Source of the DNA: Candidatus Sumerlaeota bacterium
GTDB taxonomy: Bacteria > Sumerlaeota > Sumerlaeia > SLMS01 > JAHLLQ01
Assembly: GCA_021772755.1 (NCBI GenBank)
Contig: JAJFLJ010000120.1
Span: 1 to 35,430, forward strand
Direction: 5' to 3'
Length of the DNA: 35,430 nucleotides
Below the pieces are notes generated by a model. It made no database searches. It was not told the DNA's origin and saw nothing but the letters and a program-made list of their open reading frames with translations. Shown here piece after piece: positions 6,103 to 19,229 of the stretch; position 1 is the stretch's first letter, and every line of letters starts with the position of its first letter. Made by a program: the position numbers and the translations under genes.

Positions 6103-6298
6103 GGAATGGCTCCTTTTGGCCGGGTGCGGGGCCGTTCGCACCCGTGCGCTCTCGTTGCGGCCCTGGGGAAGGTGTCGGCAGTCAGCAGATAACGGCCCCC
6201 CTTCGCGGTCAACGGGGAAGAGGGGCTTCGGCGGGTCCGCCCGGGGTGGCAGAGCGGCCACGAACGGGCTGGATCGACCGGATTCGCTGCGGCGAGAG

Positions 6299-8737
6299 CT
6301 ACCCCCGTTCGATCAGTCCGTCGAGCTTGCGGATGATCGCATCGATCTGGCGGTCGTGACGGAAATTGTAGGCGGCTTCGGCGGTATACGTGGAGAGCCT
6401 GCCGGCTTGCCTTTCGGTCAGCGTTCCGCCTGTCTCCAGGAACCTTGCGGCACCGCTGAACAGTGTCGTAAACGGGTGAATAGTCGTACGGGAGTGGAGA
6501 GCTTCGGACTCGATCGCGTCGGAGAGCAGGTCGAACGCCTCGCCGAACAACCTCTCCTTTCCGCGTTGCTCCGCTTCCATTTGCTTCAGGATGATCTTCG
6601 CCAGCGTGGTTTGCGTGAAGGGGTGCTTCTCGATCGCGACGGCATGCCGCGCGTGGGATATGGCGATGGCGAGATCGGTTTCCGCGGCGAGCAGCGCGCG
6701 CTGTTCCCAGTAGCGGGAATTCCATTCCCAGGCGGACTGAACCGCCACGTAGAAACTCTCGCTCATGTGGTCGAGAAACGGGCGGACGATCTTGTCCACG
6801 TCGAACAGGCGCTGTGCAAGGCGCGCCTCGGGTGAGCGGAGCTTGATGGCCATCCGGTTCACCATCGGCGCGAGGGACTTGGCGATGGCGATGAACACGT
6901 CCAGCAGCAGCCCGCGCTCGGTGCGCTGAACGCTGTGCAGCAATCTGTCCGCCACGGCGGAATTCAGGGGGATCGCGAAGTCGCTTTCGAGCGGGCTCAC
7001 GGCTAGCCTCAGCGGATGCCCCTTGTCGAGCAGTTCGCGAACCGCGTACAGAGGGCCGGACGCGGACTGAAGTACACTGAAACGGATACCGGCGGAATGG
7101 CAGTGGTGCGCGAGTGCCGCAGCCACATAGACCGGTCTGGCATCGGCTGGAGTCTCGCCCCACAATTCCTTCACGATCGAGTCGAGCGCCCTGAAGTCCT
7201 CCAGGATTCTGCACACCGCGACGGTCACGGAGTCGCCCGACAGAACCTGCGCGAACCTTGCCGGGTCCGTGATCGCCTGCTTGCTGGCCACAAGGCCGAA
7301 TCCGCGATAGCTCTCCAGAAGCTCCCGAAGCTCGGTCTGGTCCAGCTTGTCCAGAACCACATTGATCGTCGGCACGCCTCCGAAGACGATATCGATCAGT
7401 TCGGATCTGTAGTTCCGTTCCGCGCCCAGTACGACGACCCTCTCGGACACTTCCGAATGGGAAATGATTTCGAGTATCTGTTCCGCGTGGTCGCCGAGTC
7501 TGTCGGCAAGCAGCACGAAGGGGCGGTCCAGTTCCTTGAGATACCCGATCGCCGCTCTCGTGTCGATACGCATGTTCGTCTTGATGGAAAAGACGTATAC
7601 GCCCGCCTGCGCCAGGGAGTGCGCCACGCGCATGGCCGTGGTGCTCTTCCCCACCCCCGCTTCGTCGAGAACCATGACGAGCGCCGGTCCCGAACGCCCC
7701 CGCGCGTTCAGCAAGCGCCTGGTCTCCTCGTAGATTCGGGTGTTTGCCCTGCGCTCGACGTCGAGGTGCTGGTTGATATCGCTCCATTCGGGTTCGCGCC
7801 CGCCGAGAAACGGTCCGGGAAGCGCACTTCGTGCCTCCTCCTTTCCCTCGACGAACTCGAAGTCCGAGAAGAAGCGGAGCAGCGTCGGGGGCGCGACGGA
7901 GGCGAGCCGGAGATTCGATCGGTCGGGAAGAACGAGGTCGCTGACCGTCGGCCTGCTGGGAAGCCCCTTGTCCAGAACCCTCAGGAATCCCTCCAGAGTA
8001 CCCTCGAACAGCACCAGTCCATGGCGCTCGCAGTGGTGCCTCGTGATCCTGTTCGGATTCGGTTCGACCAGGAATGACGGGCCACGATCCTTCATCGGAG
8101 TATGGGCGGTGCGTTGACTCAGATAGAATTCGAGATCGATTTCGTTCAGAGACGTCCCTGCGATGATGAACGGTTCGGTTGCCAGTATTCCGGACAGCAT
8201 GTGCATCCAGTGGTTCTGCTCCCGCATGTACCTGGCGTATTCGGTGTGGGAGAACACGTAGCCCGTCGACGGCTCTCTCGCCGTGCCGTGAAGGTGCACC
8301 AGATTCACGCACTCGTGCTCGGGTGTCGGATCGAACGCTGAGTTGAAGTTCAGAGAGCCGAGCCGCTGCTTTGCGGCGCCGTTCCCCCTGTAAAGGGCTT
8401 CGAGAACATCGTCGATATTGAAGGTGAACATTCGCCGCCACAGGAACGTCGGCAGGAGAGCGAGTGACGGGCCGGGAGTGCATCCGGAATACGGCTTCGT
8501 AAGGAATCTCTCGACCTGCTCCGGGGACAGAAGCTGTGCGGCCTGCGAAAGAGGTGTCGTTTCCGGAACGTCGAGGGTCGAGCAGAGTTCCTTGCGCAGG
8601 TCCTCGGCACTCTTGACGCGCTCGCCGGCCGCGTTCGTGCTGTCCAGCGATATCCCCGATCCCAGCAGAAGATTGTATCGGCCCCGAGACAAACTCAGAA
8701 TCATGGTCCGGAACGTTTCGTTGGAAAGCTCGGCCAT
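6299..8737 (-). CDS. SIR2 domain-P-loop NTPase (STAND-like) protein, probable anti-phage defence
   Basis: 812 aa; start ATG 8737 has GAGGAG 5 nt upstream. The N-terminal ~260 residues are a SIR2_2-type NAD-binding domain: GSGIS (26-30), FNIDD with Asn107, HLHG with His150, and GTSLNEID (194-201). Asn and His are the residues used by SIR2 NADases. A P-loop NTPase follows with Walker A DEAGVGKST (358-366) and a Walker B-like FVLLADRL (407-414), then a long helical C-terminus (about 520-812) suited to sensing. This order (SIR2, NTPase, helical sensor) is that of Avs5/SIR2-STAND proteins, which on phage infection deplete NAD+ and abort growth. Codon use looks less GC-biased than its neighbours, and no partner gene is intact beside it, which suggests horizontal acquisition. 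The domain call is firm; the defence role is inferred. Confidence 0.85.
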   Translation of the reverse strand: MAELSNETFRTMILSLSRGRYNLLLGSGISLDSTNAAGERVKSAEDLRKELCSTLDVPETTPLSQAAQLLSPEQVERFLTKPYSGCTPGPSLALLPTFLWRRMFTFNIDDVLEALYRGNGAAKQRLGSLNFNSAFDPTPEHECVNLVHLHGTAREPSTGYVFSHTEYARYMREQNHWMHMLSGILATEPFIIAGTSLNEIDLEFYLSQRTAHTPMKDRGPSFLVEPNPNRITRHHCERHGLVLFEGTLEGFLRVLDKGLPSRPTVSDLVLPDRSNLRLASVAPPTLLRFFSDFEFVEGKEEARSALPGPFLGGREPEWSDINQHLDVERRANTRIYEETRRLLNARGRSGPALVMVLDEAGVGKSTTAMRVAHSLAQAGVYVFSIKTNMRIDTRAAIGYLKELDRPFVLLADRLGDHAEQILEIISHSEVSERVVVLGAERNYRSELIDIVFGGVPTINVVLDKLDQTELRELLESYRGFGLVASKQAITDPARFAQVLSGDSVTVAVCRILEDFRALDSIVKELWGETPADARPVYVAAALAHHCHSAGIRFSVLQSASGPLYAVRELLDKGHPLRLAVSPLESDFAIPLNSAVADRLLHSVQRTERGLLLDVFIAIAKSLAPMVNRMAIKLRSPEARLAQRLFDVDKIVRPFLDHMSESFYVAVQSAWEWNSRYWEQRALLAAETDLAIAISHARHAVAIEKHPFTQTTLAKIILKQMEAEQRGKERLFGEAFDLLSDAIESEALHSRTTIHPFTTLFSGAARFLETGGTLTERQAGRLSTYTAEAAYNFRHDRQIDAIIRKLDGLIERG

Positions 8738-8879
8738 TTCCGCTCCTCTCGCGATAGGTAGCTGAAAATCCGATTCTCCGTTTGGAGGCGCAAGACCGAA
8801 ACTGCGAATCGCCCTGCGGCGGCCGCGGGATGCGAATGTGACGCTGCTTCGGTAGGTCAGCCGAAGTCCGGTAGAACGG

Positions 8880-9080
8880 TCACCGTGACAGGGTTGCGTC
8901 CAGTAGCGCCGCCATCTCCATCGTGGTCGCGTTCCCCGGCTCTCCATTCGCGGATGTGTTGGAGGCGCCCACCACGAGTCCCTCCTTGGAGCGTTCGCCC
9001 ACCTCGCTTACCAACGATCTGACCACCGCTCCGCAGAACGTCGGCCCGGGGTGCGATTCATCGATGCAAGACCCCTGTCC
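8880..9080 (-). pseudogene. Possible C-terminal remnant of an unknown gene upstream of the SIR2 gene
   Basis: A 66-codon stop-to-stop frame (stop TGA at 8880-8882, upstream TGA at 9081-9083) reads like real protein: DESHPGPTFCGAVVRSLV near its start, an EGLVVGASNTSANGEPGN segment, and a helical end EMAALLDATLSR. Third codon positions are strongly GC, as in true genes here. There is no ATG; a GTG at the AVV segment (GGAG only 2 nt upstream) could start a 48-aa product, but the frame looks more like the tail of a longer gene that was cut or frameshifted. It lies on the same strand as the SIR2 gene, 142 bp upstream of its start. The family is not recognised. Confidence 0.3.
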
Positions 9081-9115
9081 TCACCCCACACGACTCAGCC
9101 CACCGCAGTCGTGGG

Positions 9116-9142
9116 TTGACATGTCTGAATCGCGGCTATCCG
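9116..9142 (+). promoter_or_regulatory. Possible sigma70-type promoter
   Basis: TTGACA (9116-9121) is a perfect -35 consensus. A poor -10 candidate TATCCG follows at 9137-9142 with 15-bp spacing, shorter than the usual 17. It is placed 35 bp ahead of the start codon at 9177 and directly after a hairpin, a reasonable position for a promoter of the small secreted ORF and the genes that follow. Confidence 0.35.
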
Positions 9143-9176
9143 TTTGCTGCATCTAGTTCAACTCCGGGAGTTCCCC

Positions 9177-9437
9177 ATGAAGACCGCTTCTCTCTCGCTG
9201 GCGCTGTCCGTCGCGCTGCTGGCCCCCGTCGTTGCGTTCGAATGCGACGACGCAAGTCAGGTCCCCTGCCAGGACGGCACACTGGACAACGGCGAAAACG
9301 GAGACACGGGGACCGGTTCGTTCAGCCCGTGGAGCATCCGGGTCTGCTCCGGTCCTCGATCCGACAGGAACCCTGCCCGTCGAGCTGGATTCCTTCTCCA
9401 TCGAATAGTCCGGGGCTGGGCTGGAGGCCGACAGTGA
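9177..9437 (+). CDS. Small secreted protein, possibly frameshifted
   Basis: The start is well supported: GGGAG 6 nt upstream of ATG 9177 and a clear signal peptide (MKTASLSLALSVALLAPVVA). The mature part begins FECDDASQVPCQDGTLDNGEN. As read, the frame gives 86 aa and ends in an Arg-rich tail typical of out-of-frame GC-rich DNA; its TGA (9435-9437) overlaps the next start as GTGA. In the frame one base later (codons from 9301) the same DNA reads SGSAPVLDPTGTLPVELDSFSIE and stops at 9406-9408, which looks more protein-like. So either the 86-aa form is right and coupled to the next gene, or a +1 shift near 9310-9345 truncates a ~77-aa secreted protein. Function unknown. Confidence 0.45.
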   Translation: MKTASLSLALSVALLAPVVAFECDDASQVPCQDGTLDNGENGDTGTGSFSPWSIRVCSGPRSDRNPARRAGFLLHRIVRGWAGGRQ

Positions 9438-10303
9438 GACGTTTCCTACTTCTGGCGCTCGCGATGGGCGCCCTGCTCTCCACAGCCGTCGCGCAGGAGA
9501 GCCAAGACGCGTCCGACGGTTCGCTGACGGTGATCGCGTACAACATCCGGGTCGGGCTGGGCATGCCGGGAAGTTCCGACGCACCCGGTCCGCAGGAGAA
9601 TCTCGCGAAGATCGCCGCCTTCATCGCCGGGCAGAACGCCGACGTCGTGCTGCTCCAGGAGGTCGACCGCCTTCGTTCCCGCACGGGCGGTCAGGACCAG
9701 GTGGCGGTGCTGGGCGAGGCGACGGGAATGCACACGGCGTTCGCTCCGGCGATCGTCGATGGCGAATCGCAGTACGGCATTGCGATCCTGAGCCGGGAGC
9801 CCCTGGAGGACGTGCGGGCGGTGGAGCTTCCGCGCATCGACTATTCGGAAACGCATCCGGACCTGCCGGCCTGGTTCTCGGAGCAGCGCGTCGCGCTGGT
9901 GGCGCGGATTCCCGGCGGCGTGACGGTGATCGACACGCACCTGGGCCTGACGAAGGAGCAGCGCGGGCGTCAGGTGCGGCAGTTGGCGGAGATCGCCGCG
10001 TCCGAGCGGGAAGCCGGCCGCGCCGTCGTGCTGGGCGGCGATCTGAACGCGGAGCCGGACGCGCCCGAGCTCATGCCGCTGCGGCGTTCGCTGCGCGACG
10101 CGTACCAGAACCTGAAGCGAAAGAACGGCCTGGTGGAGGACATGCCGATCCGCGAGCGGAACACGTTTCCCGCGGATGAACCGGACCGGTGCATCGACTA
10201 TCTGTTCGTGGACGGCGATGCGTTCGATGTCACTTCGGTGGAGGTTCCGGAGGTCGTGCTGAGCGACCACCGGCCCGTCGTCGCGAGGCTGCGGCGGAAG
10301 TAG
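9434..10303 (+). CDS. Secreted endonuclease/exonuclease/phosphatase-family protein
   Basis: 289 aa from a GTG at 9434 with GGAGG 6 nt upstream. Residues 1-20 form a signal peptide ending TAVA-Q, so the enzyme should act in the periplasm or outside. The catalytic set of the EEP (exonuclease III/DNase I/sphingomyelinase-like) fold is complete: AYNIR with Asn37, LLQEVD with Glu76, DTHLGL with His169, GGDLN with Asp203 and Asn205, Asp255 in IDYLF, and LSDHRPVV (His279). These coordinate a divalent metal and attack a phosphodiester. Substrates in this fold range from nucleic acids to phospholipids, and nothing here decides which. It is followed by the GT9 gene after 91 bp and may share its transcript. 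Confidence 0.9.
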   Translation: MRRFLLLALAMGALLSTAVAQESQDASDGSLTVIAYNIRVGLGMPGSSDAPGPQENLAKIAAFIAGQNADVVLLQEVDRLRSRTGGQDQVAVLGEATGMHTAFAPAIVDGESQYGIAILSREPLEDVRAVELPRIDYSETHPDLPAWFSEQRVALVARIPGGVTVIDTHLGLTKEQRGRQVRQLAEIAASEREAGRAVVLGGDLNAEPDAPELMPLRRSLRDAYQNLKRKNGLVEDMPIRERNTFPADEPDRCIDYLFVDGDAFDVTSVEVPEVVLSDHRPVVARLRRK

Positions 10304-17335: not shown

Positions 17336-17608
17336 ATGCCCGACCAACCCGCCGCCGACCGCCTCGCCCGCGCCGAAGACATCCTCGACCGCTGGCTCGA
17401 TCTCTTCGACGACGCCCTCCGCGAAGCCCGCCCCGACCCCTCCAGAACCACCGAACTCGCCAACGTCTTCACCATCCTCAAGCGCATCCACGAAATCCGC
17501 ATCCTCGCCCTCAAGACCGCCCAACTGGAGGCCGCCGCGCATGACTCTGCCGGACCCGCGTTCGATCCAGACCTGTTCGGAGGAGACCTTCAGGACTCTT
17601 CTGAATAA
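17336..17608 (+). CDS. Small protein overlapping the terminase; candidate terminase small subunit
   Basis: 90 aa, helical and acidic. Start ATG 17336 is preceded by GGAG about 10 nt upstream. It begins MPDQPAADRLARAEDILDRW and has a second helix pair TTELANVFTILKRIHEIRILAL, then an acidic tail. Its position directly ahead of, and overlapping by 68 nt with, a terminase large subunit, and its size, are what phage small terminase subunits show. No helix-turn-helix is clear, so the name rests on context only. It is probably translated together with the large subunit. Confidence 0.55.
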   Translation: MPDQPAADRLARAEDILDRWLDLFDDALREARPDPSRTTELANVFTILKRIHEIRILALKTAQLEAAAHDSAGPAFDPDLFGGDLQDSSE

Positions 17609-19229
17609 CGCCGACGCCGAACTCCGCGGCTGGCTCTTCTTCGTTCGCGCCCGCCGCGACCCCGAACTCTTCGCCCGCATCGCCACGCCCCACGCCCTCC
17701 GCCTCCCCTTCGCCGAATACCACCGCACGCTCTTCGCCTGGCACCGCCTCATGGGCGCCGTGCCGCTCGCCAGCCGCAACGGCCTGCGCTTCGCCCTCGC
17801 CGCGCCCCGGGGCAGCGCCAAGTCCACCATCGTCTCCTACATCCTCGCCCTGCACGACATCGTCTACGAGACGGAACGCTACCTCGTGCTGCTTTCCGCC
17901 ACGCGCCACCAGGCGCGCCAGCGCCTCGCCGCCATTCGCCGCGAACTCTCCGGCCGCACCCCGCTCACCCGCTGGCTCGGACCCCGCGCCGCCCAAATGC
18001 GCGTCGAGTCCTCCGCCGGCACCCTCACCGCCGGTCGCGTTCGCGTCGATGCCTACGGAGGCGGCTCCGAAATACGCGGCATCGGCCACGACTCCTGGCG
18101 GCCCACCAAGATCATTCTCGACGACGCCGAATCCTCCGCAGCCGCCGAATCGCCCCGCCGCCGCGCCCGCATTCACGACTGGTTCGGCGAAGTCGTCGAG
18201 CACCTCGGCGCGCCCTCCACCCACATCCTCGCCATCGGCACCGTTCTCCACCCCCAGAGCCTTCTCGCCACCCTGCTCGGCCGCAGCGACTTCGAGTCTC
18301 TGCGCTGTCCCGCCATCGCGCGCTTCGCCGAACCCTCCCCCGAATGGAACCGCTGGCGCGCGATTCTCACCGACCGCTCACTGCCGGAACGGCGCGAAGC
18401 CGCCCGCGCGTTCTTCGAGGAACGCCGTGCCGACATGGAACGCGGCAGCAGCGTGCTCTGGCCTGCTCTCGAAGACTACGAGCACCTCATGGCCCGACTC
18501 GTCGTCCAGGGCCGCCGCACCTTCTACCAGGAAAAGCAGAACGAGCCCCTCGGCCCCGAAGACGCTCTCTTCGATCCCGCCGTCTGCTGGCGCGCACGGC
18601 GCATTCCTGGCGGATGGCGCGTCATGCCGCCGACGGACGATCCGTCGCGCGAGCGCGAATACGCCGACGATGCGTTGCGCCGCTTCGGCTATCACGACGC
18701 GGCCCTCGGCAAGTCCGGCCGCAACGCCGGCGACTTCGCCGCCCTCGCCACCGTCGCTCTCGCCGAAGACGGAACGCTGATTCTCGAGTCCGTCTGGCTC
18801 AGGCGCGCCGCCCCAACCGAACAGATCGCCGCCATGTTCGACGCCCACGACCTCCGCCCGTTCGAGCGCCTCGCCATCGAAGGAACCGGCTTTCAGGAAC
18901 TCCTCACCATGCCCATCGCCGAGGAACGCCGCCGCCGCGAAGCACTCCGCCGCCGCGCCGATCTTCCTCTCGTCGTCGTCAAGCCCCGCCGCGCAAAGCA
19001 CATCCGCATCGCCGCCATCGAACCGTTGCTCGGCAACGCACGCCTCGTCCTCTCCGACACGCTCCCCGAGGAATTCCACACCGAACTCTCCCGCTATCCC
19101 CGCTCCGTCCACGACGACGCCCTCGACGCCACCGCAGGCGCCGTCGATCTCGCCCTCCAGGGCGCGACCGGTGCGCGCCAGCCCTCGCCCGCCCGCATCG
19201 AACGCCCCGAACGCATCGCCGGATTCTGA
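17541..19229 (+). CDS. Phage-type terminase large subunit
   Basis: 562 aa. Start ATG 17541 has GGAGG 9 nt upstream and lies inside the preceding gene. The N-terminal ATPase has Walker A APRGSAKST (88-96) and Walker B IILDDAE (191-197). The C-terminal RNase H-like nuclease shows its acidic set: Asp386 in YHDAALG, Asp398 in NAGDFAAL, Glu447 in AIEGTGF and HDDALDA (524-530). This is the usual motor that cuts concatemeric phage DNA and drives it into capsids. All key residues are kept and the gene is full length, yet no portal, capsid, tail, integrase or lysis gene is nearby. Codon use (C-ending codons) resembles the host genes at 31167-33318, so recent arrival is not obvious. It is either an isolated prophage relic or a domesticated module. 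Confidence 0.88.
   Translation: MTLPDPRSIQTCSEETFRTLLNNADAELRGWLFFVRARRDPELFARIATPHALRLPFAEYHRTLFAWHRLMGAVPLASRNGLRFALAAPRGSAKSTIVSYILALHDIVYETERYLVLLSATRHQARQRLAAIRRELSGRTPLTRWLGPRAAQMRVESSAGTLTAGRVRVDAYGGGSEIRGIGHDSWRPTKIILDDAESSAAAESPRRRARIHDWFGEVVEHLGAPSTHILAIGTVLHPQSLLATLLGRSDFESLRCPAIARFAEPSPEWNRWRAILTDRSLPERREAARAFFEERRADMERGSSVLWPALEDYEHLMARLVVQGRRTFYQEKQNEPLGPEDALFDPAVCWRARRIPGGWRVMPPTDDPSREREYADDALRRFGYHDAALGKSGRNAGDFAALATVALAEDGTLILESVWLRRAAPTEQIAAMFDAHDLRPFERLAIEGTGFQELLTMPIAEERRRREALRRRADLPLVVVKPRRAKHIRIAAIEPLLGNARLVLSDTLPEEFHTELSRYPRSVHDDALDATAGAVDLALQGATGARQPSPARIERPERIAGF

Follow-up and report, generated by a model that had tools for sequence, protein, structure and literature searches.

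The window, the whole stretch of 35,430 nucleotides analysed here, belongs to a Sumerlaeota MAG (3.96 Mb, 312 contigs, 80.7% complete). It carries a gene for a protein with a SIR2 domain and a STAND NTPase, whose features are listed in Table 1. The surrounding genes encode a PilT-family ATPase, a radical SAM protein, an endo/exonuclease-phosphatase family protein, a GT9 glycosyltransferase, an Fe-S biogenesis protein and SppA, in agreement with the housekeeping neighbourhood described in a first-pass annotation of the same DNA. A PADLOC scan found no credible defence neighbour of the gene, which stands alone in its own genome. Translation from an alternative ATG at 8947 would yield a product 70 amino acids longer. 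Since the relatives lack these additional residues and a Shine-Dalgarno-like sequence precedes the ATG at 8737, we take the latter to be the right start.

Table 1 Features of the SIR2-STAND gene and its insertion (positions in the window)
Feature	Position	Strand	Details and basis
SIR2-STAND (Avs5-like) gene	6299..8737	-	812 aa, ATG at 8737, no internal stops
Shine-Dalgarno-like AGGAG	8743..8747	-	5 nt upstream of the 8737 ATG; read from sequence
SIR2_2 domain PF13289 (residues 102-232)	8042..8434	-	Pfam E 1.1e-15
GSGIS NAD-binding motif (residues 26-30)	8648..8662	-	translation and alignment
T105-F-N107-I-D109 catalytic motif	8411..8425	-	corresponds to TTNxD of Avs5/ThsA/DSR
H150-G151 catalytic HG motif	8285..8290	-	translation and alignment
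nSTAND_NTPase5 domain PF25199 (residues 310-444)	7406..7810	-	Pfam E 3.8e-19
Walker A GVGKST (residues 361-366)	7640..7657	-	translation and alignment
Walker B-like FVLLADR (residues 407-413; D412 then R413)	7499..7519	-	alignment
R441, candidate arginine finger/sensor	7415..7417	-	inferred by analogy with PaAvs5-1 R438
C-terminal region (residues 455-812), alpha-solenoid/TPR-like putative sensor	6302..7375	-	AlphaFold, Foldseek
Y663-x13-W677-x-Q679 Avs5 'pivot' signature	6701..6751	-	spacing and alignment
Approximate insertion carrying the gene	6225..9433	.	the corresponding site of same-genus genome G001 lacks it

Comparison with G001 delimited the insertion. Homology between the two genomes ends at ~6224 and restarts at ~9434, giving an insert of ~3.2 kb, and in G001 the orthologues of the PilT gene (87-90% identical) and of the endo/exonuclease-phosphatase gene lie ~150 bp apart. 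In G004, a genome of another genus, the glycosyltransferase gene directly follows that of PilT, and the SIR2-STAND gene is absent there as well. This break in homology and the tight spacing in both genomes indicate insertion of the gene at a site that is otherwise empty. A search of the insertion borders for target-site repeats or an insertion sequence yielded nothing clear. Because synteny with a relative genome holds on both sides, binning contamination is an unlikely source of the gene.

At 61.5%, the GC content of the gene is lower than that of the remaining window (67.5%). It is also lower than in every one of 137 ORFs that served as a crude genomic background (z -2.7), each at least 250 aa long and taken from ~278 kb of the genome (19 stretches plus the window). 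The GC3 of the gene falls within the range of this crude sample (z -0.3) and is not an outlier. The first-pass annotation had taken less GC-biased codon use as a hint of transfer. Transfer itself is supported by the low total GC and by the empty site in the same genus, whereas GC3 contributes little to the argument. The gene was probably acquired horizontally, and it appears to be intact and recently inserted.

Upstream of the gene, the inserted stretch also contains a short ORF on the forward strand (9178-9437), which begins MKTASLSLALSVALLAPVVAF and resembles a truncated signal-peptide protein. A second SIR2_2 protein is encoded in the same genome (L002, G000:C54:1-2045), in an open frame of 1283 aa that is cut by the contig start; its visible part has no nSTAND5 match. 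Elsewhere in the window, at 17541-19229 on the forward strand and near tRNA-Glu and tRNA-Ser genes, lies a gene for a terminase-large-subunit-like protein (phrog_38, E 2e-69). This gene is present in 34 of the 41 genomes searched, nearly all of them Sumerlaeota, and is mostly single-copy; its product is 73% identical within the genus and ~40-60% identical across the class. The classic portal family PF04860, the one portal family covered by the search, was found in only 2 of 39 genomes. Possibly, the phrog_38 gene represents a terminase that has been domesticated, or it belongs to a gene-transfer-agent-like element that the phylum has retained.

The SIR2_2 and nSTAND_NTPase5 matches of the SIR2-STAND protein both exceed the Pfam curated cut-offs. 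Together with the helical C-terminus seen in the AlphaFold model, they uphold the order of SIR2, P-loop NTPase and helical C-terminus given in the first-pass annotation, as well as its description of a full-length protein with key residues kept: the 812 aa are uninterrupted, and GSGIS, N107, H150 and GVGKST are all present. N107, D109, G151, G363 and K364 were invariant in alignments of 28-32 diverse relatives. The position and conservation of R441 make it a candidate arginine finger. Judged on the sequence, the motif set of this protein is far beyond chance.

An AlphaFold2 model of the protein was computed from a 28-sequence alignment, with a pLDDT of 88.4 and a pTM of 0.86. Its top Foldseek match was 9jap, the 'Helical structure of EfAvs5(SIR2-STAND)' (E 5.5e-22), followed by human SAMD9 (E 4e-17) and the AVAST5 filament 9nc9 (E 1.7e-15). 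The global TM-score to EfAvs5 was low (0.31), and full-length TM-scores ranged from 0.3 to 0.5, plausibly because a closed model is being compared with what we assume to be an open filament state. When the C-terminal region (pLDDT 90.3) was searched alone, SAMD9 and the AVAST5 filament were among the best matches; for the filament, TMq was 0.44-0.49 at 5-6 Å over ~280 columns, with weak E values of 0.03-0.1. The C-terminus is accordingly modelled as an α-solenoid of helical hairpins, a putative sensor. Human SAMD9 resembles the window protein in its STAND-like core and C-terminal solenoid fold, a likeness already noted for PaAvs5, but it is eukaryotic, ~10% identical and carries another effector.

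The same region contains a signature known from tested proteins. PaAvs5-1 has a conserved Y661 and W675 and an invariant Q677 (PMC12931631), and the spacing of Y663, W677 and Q679 in the window protein is identical to it, with a chance of 0.27% in shuffles. Of the short relatives, 19 of 29 show the Y..W-x-Q pattern, among them EfAvs5; all 26 long relatives (the ~1040-aa proteins described below) lack it, and it turns up in 4% of shuffled sequences. Its presence indicates that the C-terminal region carries an Avs5 hallmark. The earlier view of the C-terminus as being of unrecognised type therefore had to be given up, since it is predicted to form an Avs5/SAMD9-like solenoid with the conserved Avs5 Y/W/Q residues.

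Profile comparisons led to the same family. A profile of the clade of the window protein (P0001) alone matched solved Avs5 structures through its SIR2 part (9nah, E 8.5e-17; 9jap, E 1.8e-16). This clade-only profile, A5, gives the fair figure against 9jap, while the E value of 6e-115 obtained with profile A6 is inflated because A6 includes EfAvs5-clade rows. A profile-profile comparison with 9jap covered 480 columns of SIR2 and NTPase at a probability of 97.9, and, like the nSTAND5 match, it places the NTPase segment among the STAND NTPases as first proposed. More broadly, the profile matches of the family lead to the NADases ThsA, DSR2, Avs5 and KomC.

We then compared individual residues. 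PaAvs5-1 needs N110, D112, H or N153, G362, K363, E410 and R438 (PMC12931631), whose counterparts in the window protein are N107, D109, H150, G363, K364, D412 and possibly R441. In both proteins, the Walker B motif has a single acidic residue followed by an arginine (FVLLAD412-R413 here, IIFIE410-R411 in PaAvs5-1); PaAvs5-1 has NG where the window protein has HG. PaAvs5-1, PaAvs5-2 and PaAvs5-3 share with it the domain order, the catalytic N/D, Walker A and the spacing of the Y/W/Q pivot (PMC12931631), but their sensor sequences are unlike and their NTPase is called nSTAND3 (PF20720) instead of nSTAND5 (PF25199). Since nSTAND3 and nSTAND5 match EfAvs5 (9jap) equally well, this call is no strong difference from Avs5. 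EfAvs5 has the same succession of SIR2, STAND NTPase and helical C-terminus and keeps the W-x-Q pivot, although it is only ~13-15% identical, has H-I-N-G where the window protein has H-L-H-G, and falls, as the only Avs5 reference in the tree, into a different clade. The AVAST5 filament (9nah/9nc9) combines a SIR2 and NTPase profile match, a C-terminal solenoid and a YWxQRA motif common to both with a low overall identity.

Other families were considered as well. SIR2-nSTAND5-TPR-CSD proteins of ~1040 aa, such as WP_125320575 of a Vibrio plasmid and L004 of the Sumerlaeota genome G001, have the same N-terminal SIR2 and nSTAND5 domains but extend further at the C-terminus, where they carry TPRs and a cold-shock-like domain. 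They were ruled out as the closest family by the tree and by the missing Y..W-x-Q pivot. This family (L004, L005, L006 and L007) occurs on plasmids and in many phyla and keeps the SIR2 and NTPase motifs; some of its members show a weak cold-shock-domain match at the C-terminus. DSR1/DSR2, in which DSR helical domains follow SIR2, and Thoeris ThsA, in which a SLOG (STALD) domain follows SIR2 and ThsB is the partner, were also rejected. The DSR2 profile match is limited to the SIR2 part, stopping at residue 239, and the window protein has a P-loop NTPase, which DSR2 is not known to have; of the Avs5 and DSR structures with which the first-pass annotation had proposed a comparison, EfAvs5 9jap is the best match. 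For ThsA, only residues 101-212 match, there is no SLOG domain, and no TIR was found among the flanking genes scanned.

The Avs5 model of PADLOC-DB 2023 did not match the window protein. EfAvs5 9jap did not match it either, so the model, an annotation rule and not a biological definition, is too narrow to exclude membership. One relative, L008, does match it (E 4.6e-9).

Close full-length relatives are few: L008 from Vicinamibacterales (45% identical), L009 from Methylibium rhizosphaerae (42%) and L086 from a Burkholderiales genome (38%). A further one, L088 (G711, an Acidobacteriota-set genome), is 44-50% identical in two pieces, and L087 and L089 are more distant. In a quick tree with some long branches, the window protein and relatives from Acidobacteriota and Burkholderiales formed a small clade apart from EfAvs5 and the ~1040-aa proteins. 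Among the 40 Sumerlaeota genomes searched, the gene of this clade was found in the window's own genome only; G001 carries a distant long relative. No relatives were found among viral contigs and phage records, and a single-protein plasmid search returned only relatives of 20-23% identity over the N-terminal two thirds.

The loci of the relatives look like those of a mobile defence gene. Gene GC was below that of the flanks at all 10 homologue loci, by 4 to 22 points. L009 adjoins prophage portal, head protease, major head and tail genes, and L086 has a fragment of a phage integrase and an rve-type transposase nearby. At L008 (4101-17322), HmaA and HmaB flank the relative and share its strand, and HmaC and IetA come next on that strand; the locus may be a composite defence operon. 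Hma is a predicted anti-phage defence system (PMC8565338). At L088 (8119-11739), a DDE_Tnp_1 transposase gene (8834-9778) interrupts the reading frame, and the gene is therefore broken in that genome.

The profiles, the 9jap match, the PaAvs5 residue signatures and the defence and mobile context of the relatives favour the predicted defence role that the first-pass annotation had suggested. We consider it probable that the window gene was acquired horizontally and is a one-gene defence encoding an anti-phage protein of the Avs5 type (SIR2-STAND), which would act by phage-triggered NAD+ hydrolysis. By analogy with solved and tested Avs5 proteins, we infer not only this activity and its phage trigger but also oligomerisation and protection. 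In the resting state, the C-terminal α-solenoid would hold the STAND NTPase closed. Binding of a phage component to the solenoid would then change the shape of the nucleotide-loaded STAND module, and the protein would oligomerise, by analogy into a filament built of dimers, the form that Avs5 activity requires (PMC12700824). The SIR2 domains, once aligned, would hydrolyse NAD+ to nicotinamide and ADP-ribose, thereby stopping the infection.

The same machine could instead answer to another trigger, such as plasmids, mobile elements or general cell damage, or serve as a superinfection-exclusion or addiction module of a prophage or island. The prophage head genes and the integrase and transposase genes beside some relatives, together with the plasmid location of more distant ones, would fit such a role. 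However, tested Avs5 proteins respond to phage, one relative lies within the predicted anti-phage Hma operon and the C-terminal fold matches AVAST5, which leaves this alternative unlikely. We regard as highly improbable that the protein is a non-immune NAD-dependent enzyme or regulator, namely a deacetylase-like SIR2 with a regulatory NTPase whose role, next to the gene for the pilus ATPase, would be housekeeping: although the gene is flanked by housekeeping genes only, it is missing from the corresponding site of G001 and G004, its distribution is patchy, with no close relative in the 40 Sumerlaeota genomes, its GC is low, its relatives occur in defence context, and the profile matches lead to NADases. 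Equally improbable is that the gene is a recent arrival lacking function or expression, as could be suspected from the split relative at L088, from the upstream stretch 8738-9433 holding only short ORFs and from a scan of the insertion that found no sigma-70-like promoter (a consensus that is uninformative for Sumerlaeota), since the reading frame is complete, every motif is kept and a Shine-Dalgarno sequence is present.

The Avs5-type protein of the window is a divergent member of a known family and not a new kind of system, and its general mechanism would be no surprise to the specialist. More tentatively, the small clade (the window protein, L008, L009, L086 and L088, with L087 and L089 more loosely attached) might represent an Avs5 subtype as yet without a name, whose sensor solenoid, and therefore class of phage trigger, would be its own; in at least one lineage it might have become an added abortive-infection arm of Hma, between HmaA and HmaB; we think this less probable than its opposite. 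With this finding, predicted NADase immunity of the Avs5 type reaches the uncultured phylum Sumerlaeota, and a small mobile clade emerges that goes unnoticed in standard defence annotation (PADLOC 2023). Finally, the relatives in the Hma operon and beside prophage genes offer ready material for finding out which phage proteins Avs5-type solenoids recognise.
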